Source of the DNA: Prevotella sp.
Lineage (GTDB): Bacteria > Bacteroidota > Bacteroidia > Bacteroidales > Bacteroidaceae
Direction: 5' to 3'
Assembly: GCA_017477435.1 (NCBI GenBank)
Contig: JAFUVV010000032.1
Span: 1-37,593 of the forward strand
Length of the DNA stretch: 37,593 nucleotides
Numbering within the stretch: the stretch's first letter is position 1; the number at the start of each line of letters is the position of its first letter. This document shows, piece by piece, positions 9,003 through 34,377 of the stretch. The notes beneath the pieces are model-generated. The model was not told the DNA's origin and ran no database searches. It worked only from the letters and a program-made list of their open reading frames with translations. Position numbers and translations under genes: made by a program.

Positions 9003-9090
9003 AGAAGCCTTTTAGCTGCAATAAAGTGCCCTATAAGCTGAGTTTATGAGGCTCTTAAGCTCAGCTTATAGGGCACTTAACCCAAACATG
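9003..9090. repeat. 22-nt-period intergenic array A (four units)
   Basis: Four consecutive units begin at 9003, 9025, 9047 and 9069. Most carry a GCC- or GGC-centred core followed by TTAA-like text. Units two and four form a perfect 19-bp inverted repeat: AAGTGCCCTATAAGCTGAG at 9024-9042 against its complement at 9060-9078, with a 17-nt loop. It lies between the divergent Na/Pi and glnS promoters. The rest of this 483-bp gap, apart from the promoters, shows nothing I recognise. Confidence 0.75.
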
Positions 9091-9145
9091 CGCGTGCACT
9101 TTTATCAATAAAATATATTTTTAACGCTGAAATCGACTCTGAAAT

Positions 9146-9176
9146 TTTGAAATACACACAATTTTATGTATCTTCG
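9146..9176 (+). promoter_or_regulatory. sigma-ABfr promoter of glnS
   Basis: TTTG at 9146-9149, a 19-nt spacer, then TATCTTCG at 9169-9176. It predicts a leader of about 100 nt whose ends can pair (ATGCAG at 9185-9190 with CTGCAT at 9247-9252). Confidence 0.75.
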
Positions 9177-9285
9177 CAGATTAAATGCAGGACTTGCAAA
9201 GTATGGGGGCAGTGGGCCGGCGCTCGACTGACAAAAGTAAAAGGCGCTGCATGGAAAATTTGTATATTCAAAATAACACATAAAA

Positions 9286-11004
9286 ATGACAGATTCAAGC
9301 ATTAATCAGGAAGAGAGGAGAAGCATCAGCTTCGTAGAGCAAATGGTGGAGAACGATCTCGCTGAGGGAAAGAACGGGGGGAGAATACAGACGCGCTTCC
9401 CGCCGGAGCCAAACGGGTATCTGCATATCGGGCATGCAAAGGCCATATGCATGGACTTCGGTGTGGCTGAGAAGTATGGCGGAGTGTGCAACCTGCGTTT
9501 CGACGACACTAATCCGAGCAAGGAGAATAACGAGTATGTGGAGAATATTCTTAACGACATTAGCTGGCTCGGGTTTAAATGGGGCAATGTCTACTACGCC
9601 TCCGACTACTTCGAGCAGCTGTGGGACTTCGCCATCTGGATGATTGAGAACGGCCATGCCTACGTCGACGAGCAGACGTCGGAGCAGATTGCGGAGCAGA
9701 AGGGCTCTCCCACTGTGCCAGGCACACCGTCGCCATATCGCGACAGGCCAAAGGAGGAAAGCCTCAGACTATTCAAGCAAATGAACACCGCCGAGGCGGT
9801 GGAGGGCAGCATGGTGCTCAGGGCAAAGCTCGACATGGCAAACCCGAACATGCACTTCCGCGACCCAATCATCTACCGCATCATCCATACGCCTCATCAC
9901 CGCACGGGGACAAAGTGGCACGCTTATCCGATGTACGACTTCGCTCACGGACAGAGTGATTACTTCGAAGGGGTCACTCACTCCATCTGCACCCTGGAGT
10001 TCGTGCCTCACCGGCCGCTATATGATAAGTTCATCGATTTCCTGAAGGAGAAAAATGGTGAAACGGAAAACATTTCCGACAACCGTCCGCGACAGATTGA
10101 GTTCAACCGTCTGAACCTGACGTATACGGTCATGTCGAAACGTAAGTTGCTGGCTCTTGTCAACGAGAAGAAGGTGACGGGATGGGACGACCCGCGCATG
10201 CCGACGGTGTGTGGCATGCGACGCAGAGGCTATTCGCCAGAGAGCATAAGGGGGTTCATCGACTCAATAGGATACACAAAGTTTGATGCTCTCAACGATG
10301 TAGCTCTGCTCGAATCGGCAGTGCGCGACGATCTGAACAAACGGGCAATAAGGGTATCGGCCGTGATGAACCCCGTGAAACTTGTCATCACCAACTATCC
10401 CGACGGGATGAGTGAGGAGATGGTGGCCGTGAACAACCCGGAGAACGAAGCCGACGGCACCCACACCATCACATTCTCTAAGAACCTGTGGATCGAACGC
10501 GACGACTTCATGGAGGATGCACCGAAGAAATTCTTCCGTATGTCGCCTGGAAAGGAGGTGAGACTGAAAAACGCCTACATCGTGAAATGCACGGGGTGTA
10601 CGAAGGATGCCGACGGAAATATCGTGGAGATTCAGGCTGAATACGACCCGCAAAGCAAAAGCGGGATGGAAGGGGCCAACCGTAAGGTGAAGGGAACGCT
10701 TCACTGGGTGTCGGCCGACCACTGCAGAAAAGCTGAGGTAAGAATCTACGACAGGCTATTCTTCGTGGAGAACCCGTCGGCCGACGATCGCGACTTCCGC
10801 GAACTACTCAACCCAGACAGTCTCAAGACGGTAGACAACTGCTACATAGAAGAATATGCAGCAGAGAAAAAGCCAGGCGATTATCTGCAATTCCAACGCA
10901 TAGGATACTTCATGGCCGACCTCGACTCGACCGAAGAGCATCTGGTGTTCAACAAGACAGTGGGGCTCAAAGACTCATGGGCAAAAGCAGTTCAGAATGC
11001 ATAA
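9286..11004 (+). CDS. glnS: glutaminyl-tRNA synthetase
   Basis: Charges tRNA-Gln with glutamine. A 572-residue class I synthetase. The first substrate-binding segment reads RFPPEPNGYLHIGHAKAI, containing the HIGH motif, and the GlnRS-type KMSKS loop is VMSKRK near residue 285. The residues FDDTNP and the GlnRS/GluRS-type anticodon beta-barrels at the C-terminus fit GlnRS rather than GluRS. Length is normal (E. coli about 554). Having GlnRS means the cell need not rely on the Glu-tRNA-Gln amidotransferase route. It has its own promoter and is followed by the TPR and DedA genes on the same strand. Confidence 0.96.
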   Translation: MTDSSINQEERRSISFVEQMVENDLAEGKNGGRIQTRFPPEPNGYLHIGHAKAICMDFGVAEKYGGVCNLRFDDTNPSKENNEYVENILNDISWLGFKWGNVYYASDYFEQLWDFAIWMIENGHAYVDEQTSEQIAEQKGSPTVPGTPSPYRDRPKEESLRLFKQMNTAEAVEGSMVLRAKLDMANPNMHFRDPIIYRIIHTPHHRTGTKWHAYPMYDFAHGQSDYFEGVTHSICTLEFVPHRPLYDKFIDFLKEKNGETENISDNRPRQIEFNRLNLTYTVMSKRKLLALVNEKKVTGWDDPRMPTVCGMRRRGYSPESIRGFIDSIGYTKFDALNDVALLESAVRDDLNKRAIRVSAVMNPVKLVITNYPDGMSEEMVAVNNPENEADGTHTITFSKNLWIERDDFMEDAPKKFFRMSPGKEVRLKNAYIVKCTGCTKDADGNIVEIQAEYDPQSKSGMEGANRKVKGTLHWVSADHCRKAEVRIYDRLFFVENPSADDRDFRELLNPDSLKTVDNCYIEEYAAEKKPGDYLQFQRIGYFMADLDSTEEHLVFNKTVGLKDSWAKAVQNA

Positions 11005-11017
11005 TTCCAGTTTTGGA

Positions 11018-11092
11018 GTTTTGAAATTTGAGGTGATATAACCTGAAAACTCAAAACTCAAAACTGAAAACCCTAAAACTGAAAACTCAAAA
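11018..11092. repeat. heptamer-like low-complexity repeat
   Basis: Degenerate copies of AAAACTC/AAAACTG run up to the first possible start codon of the TPR gene. The frame leading into that start is open from about 11042 but has no ATG, so translation through the repeat is unlikely. Confidence 0.6.
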
Positions 11093-12493
11093 TTGAACAG
11101 CGACTTTGAATATTTCAACAGCGACGACTTCAAGATGTGCCTGAAGGAATATGAAAGTGCACAGAAGAAAGGCACGGCCATGTTCCTCGACGTGAACGAC
11201 TTCGCAGATATTGCCGACTATTACAACCAGATGGGAAATAGCCGGGATGCCATGGTGGCCATAAGAAAAGGACTCGACATCTTCCCTGGCGAGGCTGTTC
11301 TCTTGTCGTACGTCATAAGAAACGATCTCCACACAAGCAAAAGACTGGACGAGGCGAAGAAGCATCTGGAGATGATTGATGACACAAGCGACCCGGAATA
11401 CTTCTATTGCATGATAGAAATAATGCTCACCGAGGAAAAAGACGAAGAGGCCGACAACGCCATAAGGCAAAAATATGAAGAGATAGACGACGAAGAGCAC
11501 GACAACTTCGTCGTCGACATTGCCGAAATATACACCGACTATTGCCTCTTAGACAAAGCCGACGAATGGCTCGAAAAAACATGCGACAAGGAATCTCTCG
11601 ACTATAAAGAAATCGTCGGACGCATCGCAATGGCAGAAGGCAACGACGCGAAAGCAATAGAAATATATCAACAGCTGCTCGACGAGAATCCTTTCTCGTG
11701 CGAATACTGGGACAGTCTGGCTACATTGCAGATACAGACACAGAGATTTAACGATGCAATTGCCTCGTGCGAGTATTCTCTCGCAATATCGCCTAACAAC
11801 CACATCGCTCTCCGCAACAAAGCCAACGCCCTATACACTACGGGGCTGTACGAAGAAGCTATCGAGACATACAACCAACTTGCAAAGATCGCTCCCGACG
11901 ATGCAGCCGTATTCCTTTCCATCGGCGCTGCGATGATGAACCTAGGGAGATATGCTGAAGCTGTCGAACAACTGAAGACTGCATACAAGAAAGACAACAG
12001 CCTCCTGAAAGCAGATATCGTAAGAGAACTTGTCATCGGCCTGTCGAGACTGAGAAGAACGGAAGAAGCACTGAAGTATATTGAAGAATACAGTAAGGTC
12101 GCAGACAACACTTCCGAGACAAATGTACTGAAAGGGCATGTGTATCTTGAAGCAGGAAACATTGACAAAGCCATTGCATACTTCGGAAAAGCCGTCAACG
12201 ATCCTGATTCAGATAGTGGAACGACGATGAGAATAGCCATTTCTTTCTACGACACCGGAGAAACAGAAATGGCATATAACCTCTTCAAAGAGATTTACTA
12301 TAATATCAACGAGGATAAAGCCCTCCCCTATATCGCCCTATGTGCAAAAGATTTAGGAAAGCACGACGTATACCTCGCCTGCCTGAAAGAAGCATGCGAA
12401 AAAGTTCCCGACGAAACACGGCTCGTACTGGGAGATATGTTTCCAGTAGAGTTGAGCGTGGATGAATACTACGATTACGAAAAGAACAAGTGA
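11093..12493 (+). CDS. tetratricopeptide repeat protein
   Basis: A soluble, acidic protein of up to 466 residues with no signal peptide. Helical TPR pairs are visible along the chain. Clear examples are a segment around residues 200-235 containing NPFSCEYWDSLATLQIQTQ and another around 240-310 containing ALRNKANALYTTGLYEEAIE and AVFLSIGAAMMNLGRYAEA. TPR proteins scaffold protein-protein contacts; no catalytic motif is seen. The first usable start is a TTG at 11093 directly after a low-complexity repeat. The first ATG is at 11135 (giving 452 residues), and I cannot decide between them. It lies between glnS and dedA, probably in one transcription unit. Confidence 0.85.
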   Translation: MNSDFEYFNSDDFKMCLKEYESAQKKGTAMFLDVNDFADIADYYNQMGNSRDAMVAIRKGLDIFPGEAVLLSYVIRNDLHTSKRLDEAKKHLEMIDDTSDPEYFYCMIEIMLTEEKDEEADNAIRQKYEEIDDEEHDNFVVDIAEIYTDYCLLDKADEWLEKTCDKESLDYKEIVGRIAMAEGNDAKAIEIYQQLLDENPFSCEYWDSLATLQIQTQRFNDAIASCEYSLAISPNNHIALRNKANALYTTGLYEEAIETYNQLAKIAPDDAAVFLSIGAAMMNLGRYAEAVEQLKTAYKKDNSLLKADIVRELVIGLSRLRRTEEALKYIEEYSKVADNTSETNVLKGHVYLEAGNIDKAIAYFGKAVNDPDSDSGTTMRIAISFYDTGETEMAYNLFKEIYYNINEDKALPYIALCAKDLGKHDVYLACLKEACEKVPDETRLVLGDMFPVELSVDEYYDYEKNK

Positions 12494-12525
12494 AACCAGT
12501 ATCAAATAAAGTATAAAGATAACAA

Positions 12526-13161
12526 ATGGCAACTTGGATATCAGCACTTCTCGGAAGCCTAAGCTATGGCATGATATTCTTCCTGATGCTCCTTGAGAGC
12601 ACCGTGGTTCCCGTACCGTCGGAATTGGTGGTGGCACCAGCCGCCTACCACTCGGTAAGCGGAGAATTGAATCTGTGGCTGGTCATATTATTTGCAACCC
12701 TGGGAGCTGATTGCGGAGCAACAATCAACTATATAGCAGGAAAGTATCTCGGACGCCCCGTCATCTATCGATTCGCAGAAAGCAAATGGGGCCACATGTG
12801 CCTGCTCAACAAAGAAAAACTTGAGAAGAGCGAGCGGTATTTCACTGATCACGGCGCCGTGGCTACAATCACGGGACGGCTACTCATCGGCATACGCCAC
12901 CTCATATCCATTCCTGCCGGCATGGCACGGATGAACTATCTGAAGTTTCTGTTCTATACCACGATAGGTGCAGGACTATGGAACATTATCCTCGCTGTGC
13001 TCGGATTGTACCTTCACAAGTTTGTACCCGAGGATGAACTCATTGCCACCGTCACAGAGTACGGACACTACATATCCTACACATTGCTCGCATTAGTAGC
13101 AATGCTTATCGTCTATTTCGTAGTAAGGAGTAGAATAAAAAAGCAAAAGAAGGAAAGCTAA
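12526..13161 (+). CDS. DedA family membrane protein
   Basis: A 211-residue DedA/VTT-domain inner-membrane protein. Members of this superfamily move lipid headgroups across the membrane (undecaprenyl phosphate or phosphatidylethanolamine recycling has been shown for some) and affect membrane homeostasis. Diagnostic segments are LLESTVVPVPSELVVAPAAY, with the acidic residues and Pro, and GRLLIGIRHLISIPAGMARM, with the conserved Arg residues and Pro. Four to five hydrophobic helices and a basic C-terminus (RSRIKKQKKES) are visible. Its stop codon overlaps that of manC, so the two genes converge with no gap. The substrate is not deducible. Confidence 0.9.
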   Translation: MATWISALLGSLSYGMIFFLMLLESTVVPVPSELVVAPAAYHSVSGELNLWLVILFATLGADCGATINYIAGKYLGRPVIYRFAESKWGHMCLLNKEKLEKSERYFTDHGAVATITGRLLIGIRHLISIPAGMARMNYLKFLFYTTIGAGLWNIILAVLGLYLHKFVPEDELIATVTEYGHYISYTLLALVAMLIVYFVVRSRIKKQKKES

Positions 13162-14219
13162 TCGCAGAATTGCTTAATCCGTTGCTCTTCAGAGAGTTTA
13201 CATATCAGCAGGTTGCCGTCTTTTTGCGCGACTATATACCCGTCAAGACCTTGCACGACCACCTTCTTCGCCTGTGTCGCATGGACGATACAGTTGTGTG
13301 AATCGTATATTGCGATGCCATCACCTATGCAACTGTTACCATAAGCATCATGACGTGTATTGCTGAGCAGCGAGCCCCATGTGCCAAGGTCGCTCCAACC
13401 GAAATCAGCAGGACAGACAAATATCTCCTCGGCTTTTTCCATAATGGCATAGTCGACAGAAATGCTCTCACATTCGGGATAGCGTTCATCTATTCTCACC
13501 TGCTCTTCAGCTGTGCCATACAACGAAAGCATGCTTTCGAACACCTTGCTCATTGCAGGCTGATATATCCTAAAGGCATTTACTATAGTACTTACTTTCC
13601 ATATGAAAATACCGGCATTCCAGAAGTAATTGTTCTGACGGATATATTTTTGTGCGGTTTCAAGATCTGGTTTCTCACGGAAAGAATCTACACGGAATAT
13701 TTCCTTATTACGCTCCGAACCGGTACTCAGTTCTGCCTGAATATAACCATATCCTGTCTCTGGACGATTTGGTTTCATGCCGAGGGTGACAATAGCATCG
13801 GTCTCTGATGTAAACTTGAGACAAGACTTAATTACCCGACGGAACTCTGTTTCGTTCGTCACAATATGATCGCTGGGTGCTACCACTACATTAGCATTGG
13901 GGCATTGCGATTTAATTCGCCAACTGACATAAGCTATACATGGAGCAGTATTTCTCCGACATGGCTCCTTCAATATGTTACCCTCAGGTATCTCTGGCAA
14001 TTGTTCATGAACCAATGCATCATAACGCTTATTGGTTACAATCCAGATGTTTTCTTTTGGAAACAAATCGCCAAAACGATCTACCGTCAACTGCAACAAT
14101 GAGCGACCGACTCCAAGCACATCGATGAACTGCTTAGGCATGTCGCCAGTACTCATAGGCCAGAAGCGGCTACCAATGCCACCGGCCATTATAACCAAAT
14201 GATTATTTGTGTTTGACAT
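13158..14219 (-). CDS. manC: mannose-1-phosphate guanylyltransferase
   Basis: Converts mannose-1-phosphate and GTP to GDP-mannose for surface glycans and GDP-fucose. The nucleotide-binding signature is GGIGSRFWPMSTGDMPKQF at about residues 13-31, and VVVAPSDHIV, FREKPDLETA and NYFWNAGIFIWK follow in the expected order. At 353 residues it is the single-function form without the phosphomannose isomerase domain of longer AlgA/ManC proteins. No glycan gene cluster surrounds it, so it probably serves as a housekeeping gene. It has its own promoter and its end overlaps the dedA end by four bases. Confidence 0.93.
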   Translation of the reverse strand: MSNTNNHLVIMAGGIGSRFWPMSTGDMPKQFIDVLGVGRSLLQLTVDRFGDLFPKENIWIVTNKRYDALVHEQLPEIPEGNILKEPCRRNTAPCIAYVSWRIKSQCPNANVVVAPSDHIVTNETEFRRVIKSCLKFTSETDAIVTLGMKPNRPETGYGYIQAELSTGSERNKEIFRVDSFREKPDLETAQKYIRQNNYFWNAGIFIWKVSTIVNAFRIYQPAMSKVFESMLSLYGTAEEQVRIDERYPECESISVDYAIMEKAEEIFVCPADFGWSDLGTWGSLLSNTRHDAYGNSCIGDGIAIYDSHNCIVHATQAKKVVVQGLDGYIVAQKDGNLLICKLSEEQRIKQFCD

Positions 14220-14239
14220 CTTTCTCGGTATTTACGTTG

Positions 14240-14270
14240 CGAAGATAATGAAAAAGATGGATAATACAAA
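14240..14270 (-). promoter_or_regulatory. sigma-ABfr promoter of manC
   Basis: On the minus strand TTTG (complement of 14267-14270), a 19-nt spacer and TATCTTCG (complement of 14240-14247), ending 20 nt before the ATG. Confidence 0.75.
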
Positions 14271-14319
14271 AAAACAAAGCGTTTTTTTATAAACTATGGC
14301 GCAACAAGCAATATCGTAC

Positions 14320-14592
14320 TTAAAAATTCAACTTAAGTTGCACATCTATCCTGCATTTATCGTCAACACGATAGACACCACGCTTTGCAGTATGGATAAT
14401 TGGTGAATGTTTCGATTTGGAAGAGCTCAACAGAAATCGTGCGACATATGCATGTACGGTATCATACGTTAGTTCATCGAACATAGTATGCCGCAGATTG
14501 AAGACATGCCGCGACAACTTCCTCACCGACAATCCTTCGTTGCCGGCTTCTAAAAGAATCTGTATTATATCTTCATCGAAGCGATACTTCAT
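14320..14592 (-). CDS. small winged-helix-like protein
   Basis: A 90-residue protein. Its pattern, a helix DEDIIQILLEAGNEGLSVRK, a second helical stretch around VRKLSRHVFN, a region with YDTVHAYVARFLL, and a closing strand HTAKRGVYRV, resembles the winged-helix fold, perhaps of the HARE-HTH type. I do not recognise a named family with confidence. It is rich in basic residues, as expected for DNA binding, and has no signal peptide. A strong terminator separates it from the upstream H1-like gene, so it is probably transcribed on its own. Gene status is supported by the fold-like hydrophobic pattern; function is unknown. Confidence 0.65.
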   Translation of the reverse strand: MKYRFDEDIIQILLEAGNEGLSVRKLSRHVFNLRHTMFDELTYDTVHAYVARFLLSSSKSKHSPIIHTAKRGVYRVDDKCRIDVQLKLNF

Positions 14593-14634
14593 ATATGAAT
14601 AACGTTAAACTCAAAACAATAGTATTTGTCAGAG

Positions 14635-14683
14635 CAAAAAAGAAACAAAAAGAGAACTGCTTTCTATCTGAAAACAGCTCTCT
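14635..14683 (-). terminator. rho-independent terminator after the H1-like gene
   Basis: On the minus strand a 14-bp stem (AGAGAGCTGTTTTC pairing with GAAAGCAGTTCTCT, including G-U pairs) with a 5-nt loop, followed by a T-rich tract. It lies just past the stop of the gene at 14710-15024. Confidence 0.8.
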
Positions 14684-14709
14684 TTAATATTTCTCCAAAT
14701 CGGCATGTC

Positions 14710-15024
14710 TTATGCCAATGCGATAAGATTGGAACGTCCTTCCACCTTGCCCTCTTTGAAGAGCCAGCCAATACCGAGATATGCTTCTTCAATTGTGATC
14801 TTTGCTGCCTTTGCAATCTCTGCAACAGGAAGAGCCTTATCAGCTGCGGCAAGAGCCTGATAAACATCGCCTGCACGGAAGCCAACGCTCTCAACATTAA
14901 TCACTACTTCAGCTTTCTTAGCTGGTGCCTTCTTTGCTGGAGCCTTTTTCGTTGTTTCTGCCTTCTTAGGAGCTGCTGCCTTCTTAGGAGCTGCTGCCTT
15001 TGTTGTAGCTTTCTTTTCTGCCAT
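14710..15024 (-). CDS. histone H1-like winged-helix protein
   Basis: A 104-residue protein with two parts. Residues 1-38 form a Lys/Ala/Pro-rich tail built from AAPKKA and APAKKA units, like the tails of histone H1 and of chlamydial or Bdellovibrio H1-like proteins. Residues 39-104 form a compact domain that looks like the DUF2582 winged helix of Bacteroidetes: GDVYQALAAADKALPVAEIA, KITIEEAYLGIGWLFKEGKV. This suggests a nucleoid-associated DNA-binding protein, but binding is inferred. It has a promoter with a hairpin-containing leader of about 60 nt and a strong terminator, so it is monocistronic, as expected for an abundant small protein. Confidence 0.85.
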   Translation of the reverse strand: MAEKKATTKAAAPKKAAAPKKAETTKKAPAKKAPAKKAEVVINVESVGFRAGDVYQALAAADKALPVAEIAKAAKITIEEAYLGIGWLFKEGKVEGRSNLIALA

Positions 15025-15088
15025 AATTCTTTTAAATTAATTATCCCAAAAAGTTGCATCATATGTGCAACGTTATCTTTTCACTCTG

Positions 15089-15121
15089 CAAAGTTAGGAT
15101 AAAAACTTATTATATAGCAAA
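15089..15121 (-). promoter_or_regulatory. sigma-ABfr promoter of the H1-like gene
   Basis: On the minus strand TTTG (complement of 15118-15121), a 21-nt spacer and a perfect TAACTTTG (complement of 15089-15096). The leader contains GTTGCA and TGCAAC as the arms of a small hairpin followed by five T residues. Confidence 0.7.
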
Positions 15122-15167
15122 TTACAACAGCAAAAAGTTGCATGTAAACTAACAAGCTACAGCCCTT

Positions 15168-16937
15168 TTATTCGTTTTCTTGACTTACATCAACCTTCAG
15201 GCACAATTCATCCAACTGCTTCTGATCGATAGTTGATGGCGCATCGAGCATAACGTCACGACCTGAGTTGTTCTTTGGGAATGCAATGCAGTCACGAATT
15301 GAATCGAGACCAGCCATAATCGACACAAACCTATCAAGACCGAATGCAAGTCCTGCATGTGGCGGTGCACCATACTTAAAGGCATTAATCAGGAAGCCGA
15401 ACTGAGCCATTGCGCGCTCCTCTGTGAAGCCGAGTATGCCGAACATCTTCTCTTGCAAACGACTATCGTGAATACGCAGACTTCCGCCACCAAGCTCTAC
15501 GCCGTTGCAAACGAAGTCGTATGCTTTAGCACGAACAAGTTCGGGATTCGTATCGAGCAAAGGAATGTCATCGGGATTAGGCATTGTGAACGGATGGTGT
15601 GTTGCCATGAGTCGCTGCTCTTCGTCACTCCATTCAAACAACGGGAAGTCGATAATCCACAGACACTCAAACTTATCTTTCGGACGAAGTCCAAGTCTGT
15701 CTCCCATCTCAAGACGGAGAGTACAAAGCTGGGTGCGGGTTTTATTCGCATTGTCACCACTGAGGATGAGAACCAGATCGCCATCGTTTGCACCCATCTT
15801 TTCCTTCAATGTCTGGAGGACCTCAGGCGAGTAGAACTTGTCGACAGAACTCTTCACCGTGCCGTCGGTATTATACTTGACATATACCAAGCCCTTAGCA
15901 CCAACTTGAGGACGCTTCACGAAATCAGTAAGTGCATCGAGCTGCTTGCGAGTATATTCTGCACATCCGGGAACACATATTCCACCAATGTACTCAGCAT
16001 TGTCAAATACACTGAACGAGCCCGTACCTTTCAGCACATCCATCAACTCTACAAACTCCATTCCGAACCTGATGTCAGGCTTGTCGGAACCGAACCGACG
16101 CATTGCTTCGTGCCATGTCAGCTGCTGAAGCTTGGCAGGAAGTTGTATACCTCTCACCTCTTTGAAAAGATGGCGAGCTAAGTCTTCAAACAAATCAATC
16201 ACGTCGTCTTGCTCAACAAACGACATCTCGCAGTCGATCTGAGTAAACTCCGGCTGTCTGTCAGCACGAAGATCTTCATCGCGGAAGCACTTCGCAATCT
16301 GGAAATATCTGTCGAATCCGCTCACCATTAGCAACTGCTTCAAGGTTTGCGGGCTTTGAGGCAATGCATAGAACTGCCCAGGATTCATGCGTGACGGAAC
16401 GACAAAGTCGCGAGCACCTTCTGGAGTAGAACCAATCAAAATCGGAGTCTCAACCTCGATGAAGTCTTTTGAATCAAGGAAGTTCCTGATTAATATTGTC
16501 ATACGGTGACGAAGTTCAAGGTTTTTGCGCACTGCATTCCTGCGCAAATCGAGATATCTGAACTTCATTCTAAGGTCATCACCGCCGTCGGTATTATCTT
16601 CGATTGTGAACGGCGGAGTCTTACTTTCAGAGAGGATGACGAGCTCCTTAGCGATTATCTCAACATCACCCGTAGGAAGATTTGCATTCTTACTCTGACG
16701 CTCACTGACATCACCCTTCACTTGAATGCAAAACTCACGGCCAAGCCTGTTGGCTCTTTCACACAATTCGCTGTCTGCTGACTCGTCAAAGACAAGCTGA
16801 GTGATACCATATCGATCGCGCAGGTCGACAAAAGTCATACCACCCATTTTTCTAAGTCGCTGTACCCATCCGGCAAGAGTAACGTGCTTGCCGGCATCTG
16901 CGAGCCGAAGCTCTCCACAAGTATTTGTCCTGTACAT
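15168..16937 (-). CDS. aspS: aspartyl-tRNA synthetase
   Basis: Charges tRNA-Asp with aspartate. A 589-residue class II synthetase of the bacterial type. The N-terminal OB fold binds the anticodon ([20 protein letters not shown]). Class II motif 2 appears as [24 protein letters not shown] insertion domain occupies about residues 290-420, and the C-terminal motif 3 region reads [15 protein letters not shown]. The length matches E. coli AspS (590). It starts at an ATG 28 nt after a perfect -7 element and is divergent from the DUF1573 gene. Confidence 0.97.
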
Positions 16938-16965
16938 TTTTCTATATCTGTTTATTTTTAACGCA

Positions 16966-16997: not shown

Positions 16998-17074
16998 TCT
17001 TTTTTTGCATTTTCTAGGATTGCCGACACCAAATCAGTGCATTGTAATGCATATATTTTTGGGTTGAACAGTAA

Positions 17075-17162
17075 AGAGGCTCTTAATCGCAACATAAGAG
17101 GCTTTCTTCCAGCAGAAAAAAGCCTCTTAAGCTGTACATAAAGACTACTTTAGCAAGGCTGA
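17075..17162. repeat. 22-nt-period intergenic array B (four units)
   Basis: Units start at 17075, 17097, 17119 and 17141. The first three carry AGAGGCTCTT, AGAGGCTTTC and AAAGCCTCTT cores at the same offset; the fourth is degenerate. Units two and three form a hairpin with 10-bp arms, AAGAGGCTTT and AAAGCCTCTT. It lies between the divergent aspS and DUF1573 genes. Confidence 0.7.
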
Positions 17163-17204
17163 CAAATAAAAAACGAGAAACAAACTGCGAATTTCCGAAC
17201 AAAT

Positions 17205-17287
17205 AAATTTGCTAGCAAATTTTCAGGTGAAAAGGCTCTTTATTGCCATTAAGAAAGCTCTTTAACAAGAAATTTGCTAGCAAATTT
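17205..17287. repeat. 22-nt-period array C flanked by identical palindromes
   Basis: The perfect 18-bp palindrome AAATTTGCTAGCAAATTT occurs at 17205-17222 and again at 17270-17287. Between them, two 22-nt-spaced units start at 17231 and 17253 with AAAGGCTCTTT and GAAAGCTCTTT. Bases 17288-17518 hold a spurious-looking open frame and nothing else that I recognise. Confidence 0.65.
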
Positions 17288-17518
17288 TTCTTCAGACAAT
17301 ACAAAGAAATAAAAAAACACATCCATAAATTCTCATCGAGAAAGTGTTTTTCTCATTATACGCACCTGAATATTAACTCTTTACATAACCTACCTAAATC
17401 GTTGTTTTTCGAAGATAAATCGCCAAATAAGCTTTATACAAAGCCCGATATCAATCAAGAAAGATCCACATTATTATTAAATAGAGTTAAAAAAAGATGA
17501 TGTTAAATCAACTTTCGC

Positions 17519-22953: not shown

Positions 22954-23125
22954 AGCAGAAAGTAAGTATTTCATCGCCTACCGACGATGTTTTAGTATTT
23001 TTTATACTTAAAAATAATTACGCGTAATAAATATAACAATGTGTATTCAAGTGCATCATGTCAATACGTAAGAATATACAAGAAAATATACAATTAGAGA
23101 CAACCAATTCTTCTTCTTTCAACAA

Positions 23126-23214
23126 AAAGCCTTTTAAGTCGCATTAAAGAGCCTTTTAAGTCGCGGTTAAAGGCCTCTTTAACAGCATTAAAGAGGCCTT
23201 TTAATAACGGCTTA
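23126..23214. repeat. 22-nt-period intergenic array D (four units)
   Basis: Units start at 23126, 23148, 23170 and 23192 and are the clearest of the family. Units one and two share GCCTTTTAAGTCGC. Units three and four form a perfect hairpin, GGCCTCTTTAA with TTAAAGAGGCC across a 5-nt loop, followed by TTTT. It lies between the divergent hemerythrin-regulator and porin genes. Confidence 0.8.
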
Positions 23215-26198: not shown

Positions 26199-26210
26199 TC
26201 TAATATACAA

Positions 26211-27917: not shown

Positions 27918-27924
27918 TAATAAT

Positions 27925-27972
27925 AGCAAGGAGAGAAGCCAACAAGGTTTCTCTCTTTGCTATATTTTTTTT
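27925..27972 (+). terminator. rho-independent terminator after di-haem cytochrome gene
   Basis: AGCAAGGAGAGAAG pairs with TTTCTCTCTTTGCT (stem of 14 with one mismatch and a G-U) across a 9-nt loop, followed by a run of eight T residues. Confidence 0.8.
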
Positions 27973-27981
27973 AACGAAGAC

Positions 27982-28069
27982 AGTACAAAGGCCATGTACT
28001 CGGAGTACAAAGGCCATGTACTGGGAGTACAAGTGTCATGTACTGGGAGTACAAGACTTTTGTACTTGT
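27982..28069. repeat. 22-nt-period array F with GTAC arms
   Basis: Four units start at 27982, 28004, 28026 and 28048. The first two read AGTACAAAGGCCATGTACT with a GG junction; the third and fourth diverge in the centre but keep the GTAC arms. Each unit can fold on itself, and the junctions give GTACTSGGAGTAC palindromes. It lies between the terminator and ccsBA. Confidence 0.85.
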
Positions 28070-28129
28070 CCAACAACAAAAACTAAGAAACGCCGTTATA
28101 TATAAAAGACACACTAAAAAGACCAGAAT

Positions 28130-30388
28130 ATGGCAAAGAAGAGCTTAATTTTTTTCTACGTCGTGCTCATCGTGTGCATGGCAGCAGCGACAATAGTTGA
28201 GAAATACAACGGCACCGACTTCGTCCACGAGAACATCTACGGCGCGTGGTGGTTTTCATTCCTGTGGGCCAGCGGAGTGGCCGTCGCCATTTTCTATTTC
28301 CTCAAGATGAACGTACGGCGACCGTCGGTTGTGGCTCTCCACCTGTCGTTCGTCGTCATCCTCGCAGGGGCGTTCCTGACAAAGGCAACAGCCAGAAAAG
28401 GCTTCATACATCTGCGAGAGGGGGAGACAACCGAGAAGTATGTCGTCTTCAAAAAGGACATGCAGGCAGAGATAGCCCTGCCCTTCTCCATCAGGCTTGA
28501 GAAGTTTGAAACGTCGTTCCACGACGGCACGAGCGCCGCAGCCGACTATATATCGCATGTGGAAATATCAGATAGCAAAAAATCTCTCCGCACCGACATC
28601 TCTATGAACAACATCTTCTCGCGGAAGGGAATACGACTATACCAAAGCGGATACGACAACGACGGAAAGGGCACGACCATCATCGTGAGCAACGACCGCT
28701 GGGGCATCCCCGTCACATACGCTGGCTATGCTCTGCTCTTCTTCTCGCTCTTCTGGATGCTCGTCGATCCGAAGGGTGCCTACAGAAATATCCTGCGCCG
28801 ACTGAAATCGCTGCCGGCAACGGCCATCGTGGTCGCGCTCATGCTCATGCCTTCCTACGCCCACGCCGCAAAGGTGCTGCCAAAGACCACTGCCGACAGA
28901 GTGAGCCGACTCTACGTGGTCTACAACAACCGCGTGTGCCCGATGCAGACGCTGGCGCTTGACTTCACAAAGAAAATCTACGGCCATCGACATTACAAGG
29001 ACTACACACCCGAGCAGGTGCTCACGGGATTTATGTTCTACCCCGAGGAGTGGGCCGCGGAGCCGATAATAAAAGTGAAGAACGCAGACATGCGACGTGC
29101 CTTCGGCCTGAACAAGTACACTTCGCTCAACTCGTTCTTCAACTCAGAGACAGGCAACTACATCCTCGGCCCGGCAGTAGAAGAATATCAGCAAGGCAAC
29201 AACGACAAGATGCACAAAGCAGCAGCCGACATCGACGACAAGCTCATGCTGATGCTCGTACAGGTAGGACGGGCCCACATCATGAAGATTTACCCCGCAC
29301 CGCTTGTCGATTCAGTCAGTTCTTCCATAATGACACAGTGGCTGTCGCCTATCGACAGGATACCGGCAGCGGTAGAGCCACAGCGAAAGGAATACATCGA
29401 AAACAGTTTCCAGCTACTCATCGACGATGCACAGGCCGGAAACTACGAACGCATGGACAAAGCGCTCGACAAAATACTGCTCTATCAGACGAACTACGGT
29501 GGAAAATCGATCCCGTCGGCACTGCGCACAAAGGCTGAGAGGATATACAACGCCGTGCCATTCGCCACGATACTATTCATGTTCAACCTGACGATGGGCT
29601 TCGTCACCCTCTTCTATTTCATCTACCGCCTCTATCGCAAGGATGAGACGACAGAAGCCGAAAGGACGAAGAAAGCAGGCGTCCCGCTTCGCGTGGCATG
29701 GACACTACTGCTCCTCTCATTCATTGCCCTCACCGTTTGCCTCGTCCTGCGATGGATCATATCGGGCACAGTGCCAATGGCCAACGGCTACGAGACGATG
29801 CTGCTCATGGCGTGGCTCATAATGCTCGTGTCGCTGCCGATATACCGAAAGTTCAACATCATCCTCACCTTCAGCTTCCTCCTCTCGGGATTCTTCCTCC
29901 TCGTGAGCCACATATCGCAGATGGACCCGAAGATATCCCACGTCATGCCCGTGCTCTCTTCACCACTGCTCACCATCCACGTCAGCATAATCATGATGGC
30001 CTACGCACTCCTCGCGCTCACATTCATCTGCGGACTAATGGCCATCATTGTCAACATCATAAAGGCCAACAGCCGCCAAACAATCGAGAGCTACCGACTG
30101 CTCTCCGAACTATTCCTCTACCCCGCCCTCACCTGTCTCGGACTCGGGATATTCATCGGAGCAATATGGGCAAACATTTCTTGGGGAACCTACTGGAGCT
30201 GGGACCCGAAGGAGACGTGGGCCCTCATCACGTTCATGGTATATGCCGTAGCCGTACACAACCGTTCGCTCCCATGGCTGCGAAACCCAATGGCATATCA
30301 CGTCTATATGACACTGGCGTTCATGACCATACTGATGACATACTTCGGAGTGAACTACTTCCTCGGCGGCATGCACAGCTACGCATAA
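28130..30388 (+). CDS. fused cytochrome c synthase CcsBA
   Basis: A 752-residue inner-membrane protein of system II cytochrome c biogenesis, which carries haem across the membrane and attaches it to CxxCH motifs. The N-terminal ResB/CcsB part has membrane helices around residues 5-85 and 205-225. Residues 245-470 form a soluble extracytoplasmic region. The C-terminal CcsA part has several helices and the tryptophan-rich haem motif WGTYWSWDPKETWALI from residue 685. Conserved His residues lie in SPLLTIHVS, AVAVHNR and near the end (GMHSYA). It is about the usual size for Bacteroidales fusions, perhaps slightly short. No perfect promoter was found between array F and the ATG. Its likely local client is the di-haem lipoprotein upstream. 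Confidence 0.92.
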   Translation: MAKKSLIFFYVVLIVCMAAATIVEKYNGTDFVHENIYGAWWFSFLWASGVAVAIFYFLKMNVRRPSVVALHLSFVVILAGAFLTKATARKGFIHLREGETTEKYVVFKKDMQAEIALPFSIRLEKFETSFHDGTSAAADYISHVEISDSKKSLRTDISMNNIFSRKGIRLYQSGYDNDGKGTTIIVSNDRWGIPVTYAGYALLFFSLFWMLVDPKGAYRNILRRLKSLPATAIVVALMLMPSYAHAAKVLPKTTADRVSRLYVVYNNRVCPMQTLALDFTKKIYGHRHYKDYTPEQVLTGFMFYPEEWAAEPIIKVKNADMRRAFGLNKYTSLNSFFNSETGNYILGPAVEEYQQGNNDKMHKAAADIDDKLMLMLVQVGRAHIMKIYPAPLVDSVSSSIMTQWLSPIDRIPAAVEPQRKEYIENSFQLLIDDAQAGNYERMDKALDKILLYQTNYGGKSIPSALRTKAERIYNAVPFATILFMFNLTMGFVTLFYFIYRLYRKDETTEAERTKKAGVPLRVAWTLLLLSFIALTVCLVLRWIISGTVPMANGYETMLLMAWLIMLVSLPIYRKFNIILTFSFLLSGFFLLVSHISQMDPKISHVMPVLSSPLLTIHVSIIMMAYALLALTFICGLMAIIVNIIKANSRQTIESYRLLSELFLYPALTCLGLGIFIGAIWANISWGTYWSWDPKETWALITFMVYAVAVHNRSLPWLRNPMAYHVYMTLAFMTILMTYFGVNYFLGGMHSYA

Positions 30389-30390
30389 AT

Positions 30391-30600
30391 AAAGCCCCCC
30401 CTTACCCTCCCTGGGAAGAATGCCGCACCACACCTATCCCCTCCTCGGTAAGGAGAGGAAATCCACAGCAATGTTCTTTCTCAAACAAGAAGCAAGAAGA
30501 AATTTCCCCTCCTTACCGAGGAGGGATCAGGGGTGGTGTTTATACACTATACACTATACATTCTACACTCCCCTCCTCAGGGAGAGGCTGGGGTGTTCAG
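30391..30600. repeat. REP-like palindromic repeat cluster
   Basis: Four related GC-rich units fill the convergent gap after ccsBA: about 30391-30418, 30426-30462, 30502-30538 and 30569-30598. The two central units are inverted copies of 37 bp with about five mismatches. Each contains the small palindrome CTCCTCGGTAAGGAG. The layout resembles bacterial interspersed mosaic elements. No RAYT transposase gene is in the window. Confidence 0.75.
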
Positions 30601-30664
30601 AGATTTTTCACTTTTCACTTTTAGTTTTTCACTTGTCAAGAAAATCTTACATTTTCTTATTTTT

Positions 30665-31150
30665 CTACATTGAGAGCAGTTGTTCGTCGTCGACGTCGCA
30701 ATGCGTGAATCCCATCTCGCGCGACACGTCTTCTGGCATTGCACGGTAGACGGCCTCGCCTTCCACGCATACCTGTTCGTGGCTGTCGGCTATGGTGACG
30801 GTGATGAACACGAAGCCGTGGCTCTGCTTGGTGATATGGGCACGTATTGTGAGCTGTGAGTCGGATGTCTTCACGGGATGGAGATAGCTGACGTTGAGCC
30901 GCGAGGTGACTCCTGCTGTCTGCAGCTTGCGTGTCACCACCCACCCTGCCGTCTCGTCGACGAGAGTGGAGAGTATTCCGCCGTGCATCACTTCGTGCCA
31001 GCCCTGGTAGTAGTCTTGCGGACGCCAATAGGATACTATGTCGTCGCCGTCTTCGAAGAACTCCATGTGAAGTCCTACGGGATTGTCGGGACAGCACCCA
31101 AAGCAGTTGTAGCCCTCGAGGTGGAGATATGGATTTATTATTCTACGCAT
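30665..31150 (-). CDS. hotdog-fold thioesterase, PaaI-like
   Basis: A 161-residue cytoplasmic acyl-CoA thioesterase-like protein. The N-terminal NCFGCCPDNPVGLHMEFF and the active-site helix HEVMHGGILSTLVDETAGW are typical of the PaaI/4HBT family; the Asp or Glu in LVDETAG is the probable catalytic acid. A strand region RLNVSYLHPVKTSDSQLTI follows. It hydrolyses an acyl-CoA of unknown type. It faces ccsBA across the REP-like cluster and has a repeat-rich 165-bp gap upstream. Confidence 0.88.
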   Translation of the reverse strand: MRRIINPYLHLEGYNCFGCCPDNPVGLHMEFFEDGDDIVSYWRPQDYYQGWHEVMHGGILSTLVDETAGWVVTRKLQTAGVTSRLNVSYLHPVKTSDSQLTIRAHITKQSHGFVFITVTIADSHEQVCVEGEAVYRAMPEDVSREMGFTHCDVDDEQLLSM

Positions 31151-31197
31151 AACTTTACAAATTAACGGATTAACAAATTAACAGATTAACGGATTAT
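31149..31197. repeat. small tandem repeat of ATTAACGG/ACAAATTAAC units
   Basis: Degenerate units AAATTAACGG, ATTAAC, AAATTAACAG and ATTAACGG run directly upstream of the thioesterase start codon. Confidence 0.6.
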
Positions 31198-31241
31198 GCA
31201 AGAGACAAGGAAATTGTCGAGCAACTTCTCTACTTTTCAAA

Positions 31242-31282
31242 CTTTACTTTCCCTTTCGGACATTTGTCCTCAAACAGTGACC
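31242..31282. repeat. dispersed hairpin repeat, copy 2
   Basis: CTTTACTTTCCCTTTCGG, a changed but still self-complementary centre (GGACA-TT-TGTCC), then CTCAAACAGTGACC. It matches the copy at 101-138 and lies just downstream of the DUF5686 gene. Confidence 0.7.
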
Positions 31283-31315
31283 GTTTTCAACTTTAGACTT
31301 TCAACTGAAACGCTC

Positions 31316-33853
31316 TTAGAAGCTTATCATGAATCCAAAGCGCACGCCGTTTTTCTTTGTCTCCTCGTTGCCGTTGTAGTTGAAACGGTGAACGAAGTCG
31401 ATTGAGAAGAACTTGAATATGTTGTGCACTCCTGCTACGATCTCCATATACGGTGTCCGGCTGTCCATCACGTGGGCACCGAAGGGGAACTCGAAGAGCA
31501 TGTCGTCGCCGGCGTTCTTTTCGAGGAAGGGGTTGTTCTTATCGGTTAGTTTTCCGAACATTCCTTTGAATGCAATGTATTCGCGCCACTTCAGGTGCTT
31601 GATGAGCGGCAGGCGATTGAGCAGCTTCCCGTTCATGTCCCATGCTATCGACCAGAAGGCGTAGCGGTCGTTGAGGAACTCCATGTTGCGCATGAGGCTG
31701 AAGGTGTTCTCGTGCTCAAAGTAAGAGAGGTTGACGGGTGGCATGATGAGTAGCGGGAACGGCACTTTCTCCCACTGAGCCCCGGCGTTTGCGTGCACGT
31801 CGATGTATCCCCACGAGCCGAGCCACTGGCGCTTATAGAAGCCCACCTCTGTGAAATTCAGCTTATATCGCCCTCCGAGGAGGTGGTTGAATCCCATCGT
31901 ATGGGCGAGTGTGAACTCGGGGCTGTCGAGGTTGACGGGCAGTCGGTGCTGCTTGGTGTTGACGAATGTCTGTCCGGGGCAGTAGCGCACGCCCACCTTA
32001 GCCTCCGTTGTGCGTATCTTGCCTACATCGGTTCCGTCGCTCACGCGAATGAAGTGAAGGTCGCCGGCAGTCTCATTGCTCTCGGTCTTGAGCGAGGCAT
32101 TGAAGCTCAGCCCCCAGTCGCTCTCGTAGATGAACGACAGTTTCTGGCGGTTGTAGAAATACATCTGCTCCACCTTTTGCGTGCGGAAGGCCATGAAGGC
32201 GTTGTCTTTGTTGTGAATGAGGAACTTGTCGGCAGGAGTCATCACGTCGTAGGAACTCTCGAAGACGATATTGCGCTGAGGAAATTCGAACGAGGAATTC
32301 TTCTTCTTGTTGAGAGAATAGGTCAGCTCGCTGCCGTAGTATGTCTTCTTCGAATCCAATCCGCGGGCAATGTACCCGTTCCAGAACAGGTGAGGATTGA
32401 GTGCGGCAGTGGTTCTGCCACTAAGACGAAAGCGGAACCCGTCGACGAAATTCTTGGATATCAGTGTGTTGATGGGGCCGATATCGAATTTGCTCTTTGT
32501 TGTCGACGACCCTGTCTCGACATAGTTCTCCACGAGTGCACGCACTCCCAGGATGACCCATTTATAGTTCTTCGACTGCTCCATGCGGTGGATGAATGCG
32601 TCCATAGACGACTCGCTCTTCGTCAGTTCTACGGCGCGGTACTGGTTCCAGAATGCCTCGTCGCGCAGCATGGCGTCGCTTTCGTGTCGTGTCTTTGCCC
32701 GTCCTTTGAAGAGTTTCTTTGGCAGTTCGTCGAAGGCATAGTCGCTCAGTCGGGTGTTTCTCACCACCAGCACTTCGGAGAGGAATCCGGTGACGCTCAG
32801 CTCAGCCCACATATCGTCCATCGTGAGCACCCACTCGCCGTTGTCGAGCTTGGAGAACTCCTGGTCGATGTGCATCTGCCGCACGAAGTTGACGTCGGAC
32901 TTATGAGGTATCGTGAGCGAGCATTTCTTCACGTGGAGCGTGGAATCGGCAAGCACATAGAGGTGCCCGCGGAACCCGAAGTCCTGCTGGTTGTTGGGCA
33001 TGAACTCGAGGTGATAGCACAGATCGCGGTCAACGTATACAGTGTCTTCGATGTAGTAGCGATAGAAGGAGATGGCCGTCTCGCCGATGGGGCTCGTGAA
33101 GGGATACTGGAGGAGTCGGACGAAATTGTCGTAGATGTCCACGTCGGTGAACACTTCCTTTAGCATGGTGTTGAGCAGTTCGCCCGTCTGCAGCACGTTG
33201 TTCACGCCGCTGCTCTGCCGACCCTTTACGATGTCTTTCTCCGAGCGCGGGTCCTTGCGGTAGATGTGCTGGGTGACTGTCTCGTCGACGGAGAGCGGCA
33301 GGATGAGCTTGTTGGTGTAAGAGCTCGTCTCCACCTGATCGAGGAGCCACTTAGAGTTCTTGAACATGCCCGACTGCAGGTCGTCGGCACGCAGGTCGCT
33401 GATGGCGAAGGAGATTTTCTGGTATTTGTTGTACTGATAATAGTCGTGGTTTGCAAGGTCGTTTTTCTCCTTTGCGGCAATGACGCGCCTCATGAGCTCG
33501 ACGGCCGGATTGTCCTTGCGCCGATACTTTCCCCGCTTCGAGCTGACGGTCACTTCGCCAAGGTTGGTCGCATCTTCCTTAAGAGTGATTTTCAGAGTGT
33601 TAGGTGTCTTTGCATCAACCTTTACTGTCTGCGTTTTATATCCCACCGAACTGAACGTGAGAGTCCACCCCTCGTGGCGTGGGATGGAGAAGCGGCCCTC
33701 GCCATCGCTGGCAACGGCAACGTGGTGACCCTTGTACATCACACTGGCGTAGGGAATGCCGTAGCCGTCGTCGGCCAAGACTTCACCTGTGATCTGCGCC
33801 TTGAGAATCAAGACGAAAAAGGAAAATATGATTATACTTAGAAATCTTTTCAC
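31316..33853 (-). CDS. DUF5686 outer-membrane protein with carboxypeptidase-regulatory-like domain
   Basis: An 845-residue outer-membrane protein. A signal peptide (about 1-19, ending LKAQ) precedes a carboxypeptidase-regulatory-like beta domain at 21-95. This contains PYASVMYKGHHVAVASDGEG and FSSVGYKTQTVKV, the same domain that starts SusC/TonB-dependent transporters. No TonB plug follows. The rest has many amphipathic strands and fits DUF5686, a Bacteroidetes family predicted to form a barrel, ending in GFMISF. Function is unknown. A good promoter gives a leader of about 70 nt. It is divergent from the inositol-lipid cluster. Confidence 0.88.
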   Translation of the reverse strand: MKRFLSIIIFSFFVLILKAQITGEVLADDGYGIPYASVMYKGHHVAVASDGEGRFSIPRHEGWTLTFSSVGYKTQTVKVDAKTPNTLKITLKEDATNLGEVTVSSKRGKYRRKDNPAVELMRRVIAAKEKNDLANHDYYQYNKYQKISFAISDLRADDLQSGMFKNSKWLLDQVETSSYTNKLILPLSVDETVTQHIYRKDPRSEKDIVKGRQSSGVNNVLQTGELLNTMLKEVFTDVDIYDNFVRLLQYPFTSPIGETAISFYRYYIEDTVYVDRDLCYHLEFMPNNQQDFGFRGHLYVLADSTLHVKKCSLTIPHKSDVNFVRQMHIDQEFSKLDNGEWVLTMDDMWAELSVTGFLSEVLVVRNTRLSDYAFDELPKKLFKGRAKTRHESDAMLRDEAFWNQYRAVELTKSESSMDAFIHRMEQSKNYKWVILGVRALVENYVETGSSTTKSKFDIGPINTLISKNFVDGFRFRLSGRTTAALNPHLFWNGYIARGLDSKKTYYGSELTYSLNKKKNSSFEFPQRNIVFESSYDVMTPADKFLIHNKDNAFMAFRTQKVEQMYFYNRQKLSFIYESDWGLSFNASLKTESNETAGDLHFIRVSDGTDVGKIRTTEAKVGVRYCPGQTFVNTKQHRLPVNLDSPEFTLAHTMGFNHLLGGRYKLNFTEVGFYKRQWLGSWGYIDVHANAGAQWEKVPFPLLIMPPVNLSYFEHENTFSLMRNMEFLNDRYAFWSIAWDMNGKLLNRLPLIKHLKWREYIAFKGMFGKLTDKNNPFLEKNAGDDMLFEFPFGAHVMDSRTPYMEIVAGVHNIFKFFSIDFVHRFNYNGNEETKKNGVRFGFMISF

Positions 33854-33925
33854 CCTGTCTTAGAGATATGTAAACGTCGGGGGCCAACGGCACCACACAA
33901 CGGATGTTTTACTGAAATCGACATG

Positions 33926-33956
33926 CAAAGTTACATCAAGACTGCCGCATTTCAAA
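33926..33956 (-). promoter_or_regulatory. sigma-ABfr promoter of the DUF5686 gene
   Basis: On the minus strand TTTG (complement of 33953-33956), a 19-nt spacer and a perfect TAACTTTG (complement of 33926-33933). Confidence 0.78.
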
Positions 33957-34289
33957 ATAAAACACATTATTTTAAAATAAATTAGGAGTTATTAGGCTAT
34001 GGGCAGACCATCGAGTCGGACAAGCATGGGCTGGAAGCACGCGATTGTTTCACGGAAAAGTGCAAACTATGCATTTACACAGAAAAAGTAACCGTCGCTA
34101 CAAAAACCGGCGCGAGAATCGAAGAATTTCGAACAGAAAAAATCTTGGTCGAAAATACGCGAGTTTTGAGCACTTTTCACAATTCGTTGTATCACAGAAA
34201 GTTAACCTTACACAAGCAAACAAGAAGGTCTCAAAAGCACGAAAACAGAACTGTTTTTCGGACATAAAGAACACTTTTTTGACCATCAA
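33957..34289. other. intergenic stretch without a recognised gene
   Basis: AT-rich DNA between two divergent promoters. The open frames here are short and lysine/arginine-rich without family resemblance, so I treat them as spurious. The 15-mer TGTTTCACGGAAAAG occurs at 34046-34060 and again at 34482-34496, on either side of array E. Confidence 0.5.
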
Positions 34290-34377
34290 AGAGCCCATTT
34301 GATGCCATTAAAGGGCCTCTTTAATGCCGTCAACCCATTGGGTTGATCAAGTCAAACGGGCTCTTTAATGAAAACAA
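34290..34377. repeat. 22-nt-period intergenic array E (four units)
   Basis: Units start at 34290, 34312, 34334 and 34356. Units one, two and four carry AGAGCCCATTTGA, AGGGCCTCTTTAA and ACGGGCTCTTTAA at the same offset. Unit three is a different palindrome, CAACCCATTGGGTTG. It lies between the divergent DUF5686 and PgpA-like genes. From 34378 to 34654 I see no gene. Confidence 0.75.

Follow-up and report, generated by a model that had tools for sequence, protein, structure and literature searches.

Palindromic units at an exact 22-nt pitch form intergenic arrays of constant geometry and differing letters in Prevotella

Repetitive extragenic palindromes and bacterial interspersed mosaic elements (REP/BIME) are short, high-copy intergenic palindromes that often occur in groups and for which roles in supercoiling, termination and mRNA stability have been proposed (PMC3733652, in the parts used here). 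In Porphyromonas gingivalis, the passages of Klein et al. 2015 (PMC4596501) that concern repeats describe BrickBuilt, a miniature inverted-repeat transposable element (MITE) with 23-nt direct repeats in 1 to 22.8 copies and with a leader and tail whose terminal inverted repeats resemble those of IS5-family elements; 19 occur in ATCC 33277, and 22-nt tandem repeats reported in W83 are also mentioned. PINSR is a 188-bp intergenic and most likely non-coding element of Prevotella intermedia that is lineage-restricted, has 177 and 184 copies in two strains, also lies downstream of tnaA in ATCC 25611 and is left without a function in the relevant passages of Naito et al. 2015 (PMC4755523). Here we describe arrays of short palindromes in a 37,593-nt contig of Prevotella sp. 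(JAFUVV010000032.1, assembly GCA_017477435.1), which is analysed at full length and called the window; it is contig C62 of a 2.32-Mb, 62-contig draft genome (the host). The repeated unit is a 19-nt imperfect palindrome (9 + 1 + 9) followed by a 3-nt spacer, and an array usually consists of four units. This 9+1+9+3 geometry is the trait that arrays have in common, rather than the central GCC that a preliminary description of the window had regarded as conserved.

A family of intergenic arrays in which pitch and self-complementarity are conserved over letters had been proposed from the window, and it is borne out genome-wide and on a larger scale than was claimed. The host sample of 756,046 bases comprises the window and 40 stretches, mostly contigs with a prior pattern match, and is non-random. 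A letter-blind scan of this sample for tandem odd-centred palindromes at periods 15-44 gave 71 arrays at period 22, chance hits possibly among them. Of the remaining periods, the harmonics 33 and 44 had 63 and 34 arrays, and all others had 0-9. Six block shuffles of the sample gave 0, 1, 1, 0, 0 and 2 arrays, so that the claim stands against shuffled sequence as well as in the scan for enrichment, the two checks suggested beforehand. No comparable period peak was found for even-centred palindromes in the first 377 kb of the sample. At up to one mismatch, TTAAAGAGNCNYTTTAA has 43 strand-wise host matches compared with 2 for its reversed control, some sites being counted on both strands. The density implies about 200 arrays in the host, a rough figure because the stretches are non-random; three period-22 hits that look like chance were dropped from the list of array contexts. 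The nearest genome found, that of the uncultured Prevotellaceae bacterium RUG12886 (G040; the sister), has 47 period-22 arrays in 643 kb partly picked for repeat matches, possibly with chance hits included, and 3 and 5 arrays at two other periods; its arrays are mostly of the A and composite types described below.

Direct self-similarity within the window, measured at period 22, has its peaks at 27981 (56/66), 23117 (43) and 8995 (41), and the Tandem Repeats Finder program (TRF) calls period 22 at 9034, 23124, 27982 and 34283. Four-unit palindrome sums are 29 (27982), 28 (34290) and 24 (23126), and the maxima in 20 dinucleotide shuffles of the window are 20-23 at period 22 and 22-25 over periods 19-44; 23126 is the weakest of these three high-scoring arrays.

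The arrays fall into letter types, here called dialects. The commonest in the host sample, with 46 arrays, has units of the form AGTACA-N7-TGTACT (B) and includes the window array at 27982, which had been set apart as an exception. With up to one arm mismatch, 170 units have a 7-nt core and 0-4 have a core of any other length between 2 and 15; with perfect arms the counts are 142 and 0. Distances between neighbouring units of up to 90 nt in the host (n=121) are 22 (114), 44 (6) and 66 (1), with none else, and the two longer distances fit a decayed unit in between. The 49 clusters in the host contain four units (35), three (6), two (4) or one (4) and never more; six-unit AGTACA-like arrays in genome G042 (L056:616-744, L069:3431-3559) are longer than any in the host sample. 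Arms are letter-perfect (48/48 positions) in 23 of the 46 arrays while cores and spacers vary, so arms are conserved as letters and not merely as pairs. Cores are asymmetric, reading TGG-N-CTT or its reverse complement over their 7 nt. Half-site statistics were drawn from 43 of the 46 arrays, omitting two below 42/48 arm positions and one near a stretch end. Like halves of units 2-4 are alike (best pairs z 3.4-4.5) and left halves are unlike right halves (z to -5.4), so these units mostly have the same direction, which unit 1 follows weakly. A common direction suits head-to-tail assembly. The 42 arrays that could be oriented (one more has no direction) have flanks GGCGGC and GCWGCC that lack base-pair covariation, and no conserved flank extends beyond about 6 nt.

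Other host dialects are a TTAAAG type (A, including CATAAGAG forms) and a TATC/GATA type (C), and in composites AAATTTTGCTAGCAAAATTT palindromes bracket two A units at 22-nt pitch. The AAATTTTGCTAGCAAAATTT palindromes also occur alone, and at several sister places (e.g., L215 near 2538) they bracket two A units at a 66-nt distance. A run finder, which counts chance neighbours as well, lists A or C arrays of up to nine units. Among 119 distinct A units from host and sister, matching between arms at pairs 2-5 lies above all 1000 shuffles (z 3.9, 7.5, 4.6, 5.8), with a weaker pair 1 (z 2.3), a nearly invariant pair 6 and no signal at pair 7; the covariation is somewhat overstated because related units are non-independent. 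Mismatches in A units have no strand coherence of G.T over A.C (77/153 unit pairs in the sister, 25/52 in the host), as expected of duplex DNA rather than RNA.

The arrays of the window are as follows, with neighbouring genes named by Pfam matches.

9000..9087, no strand: degenerate period-22 array (self-similarity 41/66, TRF 9034-9080), the weakest of the set; neighbours are a Na/Pi-cotransporter gene (-) and a glutamine/glutamate-type tRNA synthetase gene, read as glnS (+).
17070..17154, no strand: A-dialect array, units 17070-17088, 17092-17110, 17114-17132 and 17136-17154; neighbours are a class II (D/K/N) tRNA synthetase gene, read as aspS (-), and a DUF1573 gene (+).
17204..17288, no strand: composite array P-A-A-P, AAATTTGCTAGCAAATTT palindromes at the ends and two A units between them at pitch 22, from the sequence and a centre scan.
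23121..23205, no strand: A-dialect array of four units, score 24; neighbours are a LuxR/hemerythrin gene (-) and a gene without a Pfam match (+).
27982..28066, minus strand: B-dialect array of four AGTACA-N7-TGTACT units starting at 27982, 28004, 28026 and 28048, score 29; neighbours are a di-haem oxidoreductase gene and a cytochrome c assembly gene, both +.
34285..34369, no strand: A-dialect array of four units, among them the fully palindromic GTCAACCCATTGGGTTGAT, score 28; neighbours are a DUF5686 gene (-) and a PgpA gene (+).

Five regions had been named beforehand. Those at 27982, 34290 and 23126 are upheld by their palindromes and that at 17075 by the sister, and 9003 and 17075 are degenerate by themselves. 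The palindrome sum at 9003 was reached by 109 of 500 shuffles of its intergenic region; the array is degenerate, with direct self-similarity as its only signal, and in the sister, glnS has a different upstream neighbour and no array in the examined sequence before it. At 17075 the sum was reached by 292 of 500 shuffles; four clear units sit in place in the sister (L167:3190), and the array is counted as real for this reason. A further site reported at 17231 does have period 22 and belongs to the composite at 17204..17288, which is absent here from the sister and present at other sister places. Arms at 27982 are perfect at 48/48 positions, with the core direction TGG..CTT on the minus strand. 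The array at 34285..34369 lies within about 645 nt that correspond to about 82 nt in the sister. The surrounding sequence at 34043-34494 is 66-69% similar to several sister places (C26, C103, C71), so the array may belong to a dispersed repeat of greater length. Elsewhere in the window, a C-terminal protein segment at 20402-20571 matches many sister places (74-83%); as a guess, it may be a shared sorting or dockerin-like domain.

In two further genomes, G388 and G017, the arrays are embedded in a longer repeat, of which the leader TTGTAAAGATAATTCT and the tail GAAAAATATTTACA are conserved. This repeat holds four 22-nt palindromic units; its length from leader to tail is 187-188 nt in nine of ten copies, and the tenth has an unmatched tail. 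A first look gave 286 and 324 candidates, 40 of each of which were scored. In G388 an array starts at L258:1029, downstream of a tryptophanase gene (1390-2766, minus strand) that scores 943 bits with the TnaA equivalog model (cut-off 750). Neither leader motif nor array follows the homologous tnaA gene in the examined piece of G017 (L259). Length, copy number and the copy at tnaA, rather than the published consensus, indicate that the repeat is probably PINSR. A PINSR-like query from G017 had no matches in host and sister and many in G388 and G017, so PINSR would be kin to the window arrays by architecture and not by letters. Both are intergenic, lineage-restricted, probably non-coding and high in copy number; a conserved leader and tail distinguish PINSR.

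The B pattern AGTACA N7 TGTACT N3 AGTACA occurs 370+379 times in the host and 28+26 times in the sister, and is absent from 39 relatives (23 of the same genus) and from 294 other genomes drawn from the order. A longer B pattern occurs in at least 28 stretches of named genomes, all titled Prevotella, Prevotellaceae, Bacteroidaceae or Bacteroidales; these stretches come from twelve genomes, ten of which, chosen because they carry the pattern, were searched whole and gave 1 to 28 forward matches each. Arrays were not evident in most of the congeners sampled. Letter-blind scanning of 20 same-genus genomes, 221 kb in all, produced one period-22 hit, which does not exceed the background of 0-4. The A-core pattern was found in 16 of 249 same-genus genomes, most strongly in G527 (214), G406 (52), G388 (23) and the host (19). 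Its reversed control was found in 8 of the 249, with 141 matches in G477, so single A-core matches mean little. Letter-blind scanning of stretches around matches gave period-22 arrays in G527 (5), G406 (5), G388 (8), G017 (4) and G331 (2), with one hit each in G406, G388 and G331 looking like chance by eye, and 0-1 arrays at other periods between 18 and 29. No period-22 arrays were found in G477 (63 kb), G003 (40 kb) or G330 (20 kb). In G477 the control TTCTCSGAGAA at a 22-nt distance accounts for its matches over the whole genome, yet the 63 kb scanned had no arrays; these matches may be something local. Phages were considered as carriers and set aside: the AGTACA pattern was found in no stretches of viral contigs and the A pattern in three, and the 27982 array had no match in phage records. 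The three viral contigs (L266, L267, L268) carry the exact A-core pair at a 22-nt distance.

Arrays turn over fast between the two sisters. Host and G040 were compared over 212,852 aligned bases with a mean identity of 86%, of which 36.6 kb are at 96-99% and nearly all the rest at 66-96%. Some segments are 96-98% identical and others lower (e.g., L190/L046, L271/L058, L192/L053), a mosaic that suggests recent exchange. Both flanks were present in examined G040 sequence for 17 of 82 listed host arrays, the states of which were judged by reading. The dialect is the same in both sisters at eight (L026, L191, L192, L024, L041, L189, window 17070 and 23121) and different at two (L180:9991, L180:15229), and no array is visible in G040 at seven (L033:2723, L187:3176, L187:7424, L032:18246, window 27982, 34285 and 17204). 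In-place switching of dialect is not adopted for the two differing loci, which chance co-occupation of the same gap could explain. At 23121, four units are in place in both sisters and three of the four have changed letters on both arms. At L041:17199 there are five units in the host and four in the sister, a difference of 22 nt within almost identical flanks, and the composite beside it differs by exactly three units (66 nt). Six AGTACA arrays are present in both sisters (L026, L191, L192, L190 and two in L271) with flanks at 96-98% identity (89% on one side of L026), and probably lie in recently exchanged DNA; five unshared AGTACA arrays have flanks at 71-92%. From these identities, the B set spread in the host lineage, or was lost in G040, after separation. 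No target-site duplication and no AGTACA-array insertion in near-identical flanks was found in the sequence examined. A 254-nt segment of G040 (L046:5743-5996) is missing from the host (L190:8598-8603) with a 6-nt junction overlap; it is insertion-like and no array was seen in it.

Arrays are not promoter-specific. The comparison of position with gene orientation, also proposed beforehand, was run with orientation classes from a crude gene finder: arrays are flanked by gene pairs of all orientations, and convergent pairs are at least as frequent as the available space predicts. Among A, B and C arrays outside open reading frames (ORFs), 11 of 57 in the host lie between convergent genes (17% of the space) and 11 of 41 in the sister (15%). 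Predicted ORFs of 450 nt or longer, which may be false, contain five of 40 B arrays. A tie to replication strand was rejected, as B direction does not follow contig GC skew (22:20); against local skew the ratio is 15:27. Orientation to genes was counted for 37 AGTACA arrays, neighbour genes being missing for some others. Genes ending within 200 nt of an array have one orientation in 19 cases versus 5 (p 0.007), co-directional neighbours number 15 versus 4 (p 0.02) and array direction compared with contig gene balance gives 13 versus 29 (p 0.02). Replication gave 3 versus 1 in the host and 5 versus 5 in the sister, duplicates included, and no preference is claimed.

We tentatively suggest, at a little below an even chance, that the arrays belong to dispersed intergenic elements of the PINSR/REP type whose active part would be a phased row of dimer sites read by a lineage-specific DNA-binding protein. 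Each unit is a predicted dimer site whose two half-sites are opposed on either side of a single central base. A row of usually four units at the exact 22-bp pitch would place four dimers side by side on nearly the same helix face, where they could bind cooperatively. Each lineage would have its own half-site letters, read by its own version of the putative protein, which might be a nucleoid- or supercoil-managing protein or a recombinase that spreads the element; the carrier would be non-coding. A row of dimers on duplex DNA is suggested because spacing, symmetry and mostly the number four survive the change of letters. With 10.5 bp per turn, B-DNA completes two turns in 21 bp; a 22-bp pitch is close to this and drifts by about 34 degrees per unit. 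The earlier proposal that units about two turns apart face the same side of the helix holds in that the geometry suits proteins lying side by side, with the reservation of this drift. Several observations weigh against a row of dimers: the pitch is one base over two helical turns; a homodimer would not need an asymmetric core; no candidate binding protein has emerged; four units are not universal (six in G042, five or four at L041:17199, up to nine listed for A and C); covariation of the outer A arms also suits hairpins or palindrome-correcting template switching; and the TATC dialect is strand-coherent in 55 of 61 pairs, its units being near-copies of each other. A bolder version, which we regard as improbable, would have about 200 phase-locked four-dimer stations per chromosome and a fast-evolving protein, with letters rewritten between sisters while the 22-bp geometry stays fixed. 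Such lock-and-key co-evolution could point to a new chromosome organiser or to a genome-wide barrier to foreign DNA.

Part of this evidence can be read in other ways. If the units acted as hairpins in single-stranded DNA or RNA (6-bp stem, 7-nt loop) or as cruciforms, stems could drift while pairing is kept, as in REP hairpins. Covarying A arms and strand-coherent TATC units would agree with this, as would the rarity of Watson-Crick pairing at AGTACA pair 7-13 (26/168 units), which leaves a loop, and the loop words (e.g., AAGCCCA/TGGGCTT) that the AGTACA and TATC dialects have in common under different stems. Pair 1-19 of AGTACA units also has 14 G.T versus 2 A.C on the oriented strand (23 versus 11 over the arms as a whole). 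This excess was unseen in a second small sample (1 versus 2), and orientation had been chosen from the core; as the A dialect has no coherence and TATC does, a strand-specific RNA or single-stranded structure is not claimed. Free hairpins have no need of exact 3-nt linkers and could equally well be joined by 2 or 4 nt, yet the geometry is rigid. At Rfam gathering scores, only a tRNA was found in the window, none of its arrays matched, and nothing was found in three other stretches (L257, L238, L190). We consider the hairpin explanation unlikely. A selfish non-autonomous mobile element, with the palindrome row as the recognition end for a transposase or recombinase and no host role, is a shade more credible and still rather unlikely. 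High copy number, lineage-specific bursts such as that of AGTACA in the host, presence or absence between sisters, the common GGCGGC/GCWGCC flanks and the leader and tail of the PINSR-like form all agree with it. The lack of target-site duplications and of array insertions in near-identical flanks speaks against it, as does the integrity of arms beside variable cores, a contrast that suggests either a varied source or selection on copies already inserted. A matching transposase is also not a steady companion: genes for REP-associated tyrosine transposases (RAYT; PF01797, Y1_Tnp) were not found in five of nine array-bearing genomes (G041, G042, G043, G045, G017), several of them drafts. The host has 4 matches, the sister 2, G044 5 and G047 1, and RAYT was rejected as the mobiliser because these genes are not tied to arrays. 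An ordinary transcription regulator that controls a large regulon would likewise have operators with palindromic half-sites in mostly intergenic positions, and several arrays do lie between divergent genes; the occupation of convergent gaps and the differences in dialect and place between sister genomes make this very unlikely. Neutral slippage of tandem repeats could produce the unit-wise 22- and 66-nt differences at L041:17199 and the six-unit arrays of G042, but host AGTACA clusters never exceed four units or show off-phase spacings and the same geometry occurs with unrelated letters, so this origin appears extremely improbable.

The row of dimer sites remains our preferred reading, and the arrays can be placed among known systems by their build. 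Iterons of R6K are 22-bp direct repeats about two helical turns apart, a spacing like that of the arrays, which sets protein units on one face; they lie next to a rep gene at replication origins, whereas the arrays are built of palindromic units and scattered along the chromosome. REP/BIME elements have variable spacing, whereas the arrays have an exact pitch and no steady link with RAYT genes, and the REP tag GTAG/CGTC was not found in the consensus of the 42 oriented AGTACA arrays and their flanks. BrickBuilt is similar in being an intergenic, dispersed Bacteroidales element of short tandem units that can form stem-loops, and was rejected as an identification because host arrays have a pitch of 22 only, up to four AGTACA units and no conserved flank beyond the few bases noted. 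With regard to the terminal inverted repeats and target-site duplications of a MITE, the AGTACA arrays have the short complementary flanks GGCGGC/GCWGCC without covariation, and no clean array insertion was seen. Clustered regularly interspaced short palindromic repeats (CRISPR) do not fit 3-nt spacers, palindromic units and 71 dispersed arrays. The preliminary description knew of no repeat class with these properties. This no longer holds in full, since PINSR probably contains the four-unit module, although the passages on PINSR in PMC4755523 mention neither inner palindromes nor a 22-nt pitch and no account of period-22 palindrome rows was found among the open-access papers searched. It is customary to classify dispersed intergenic repeats by letters, and here the letters differ both between and within genomes. 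The constraint looks physical, because pitch and symmetry are constant while letters differ, and the geometry shared with some other Prevotella points to a putative common way of working. A search based on geometry finds such elements where sequence comparison misses them, and it would explain the inner build of PINSR, an element with about 180 copies in an oral pathogen. High-copy intergenic repeats are thus known as a kind, with PINSR as one named member. The 22-nt palindromic build shared across unrelated letters and the presence of several dialects in one genome are new, as is the probable inclusion of PINSR in this family.

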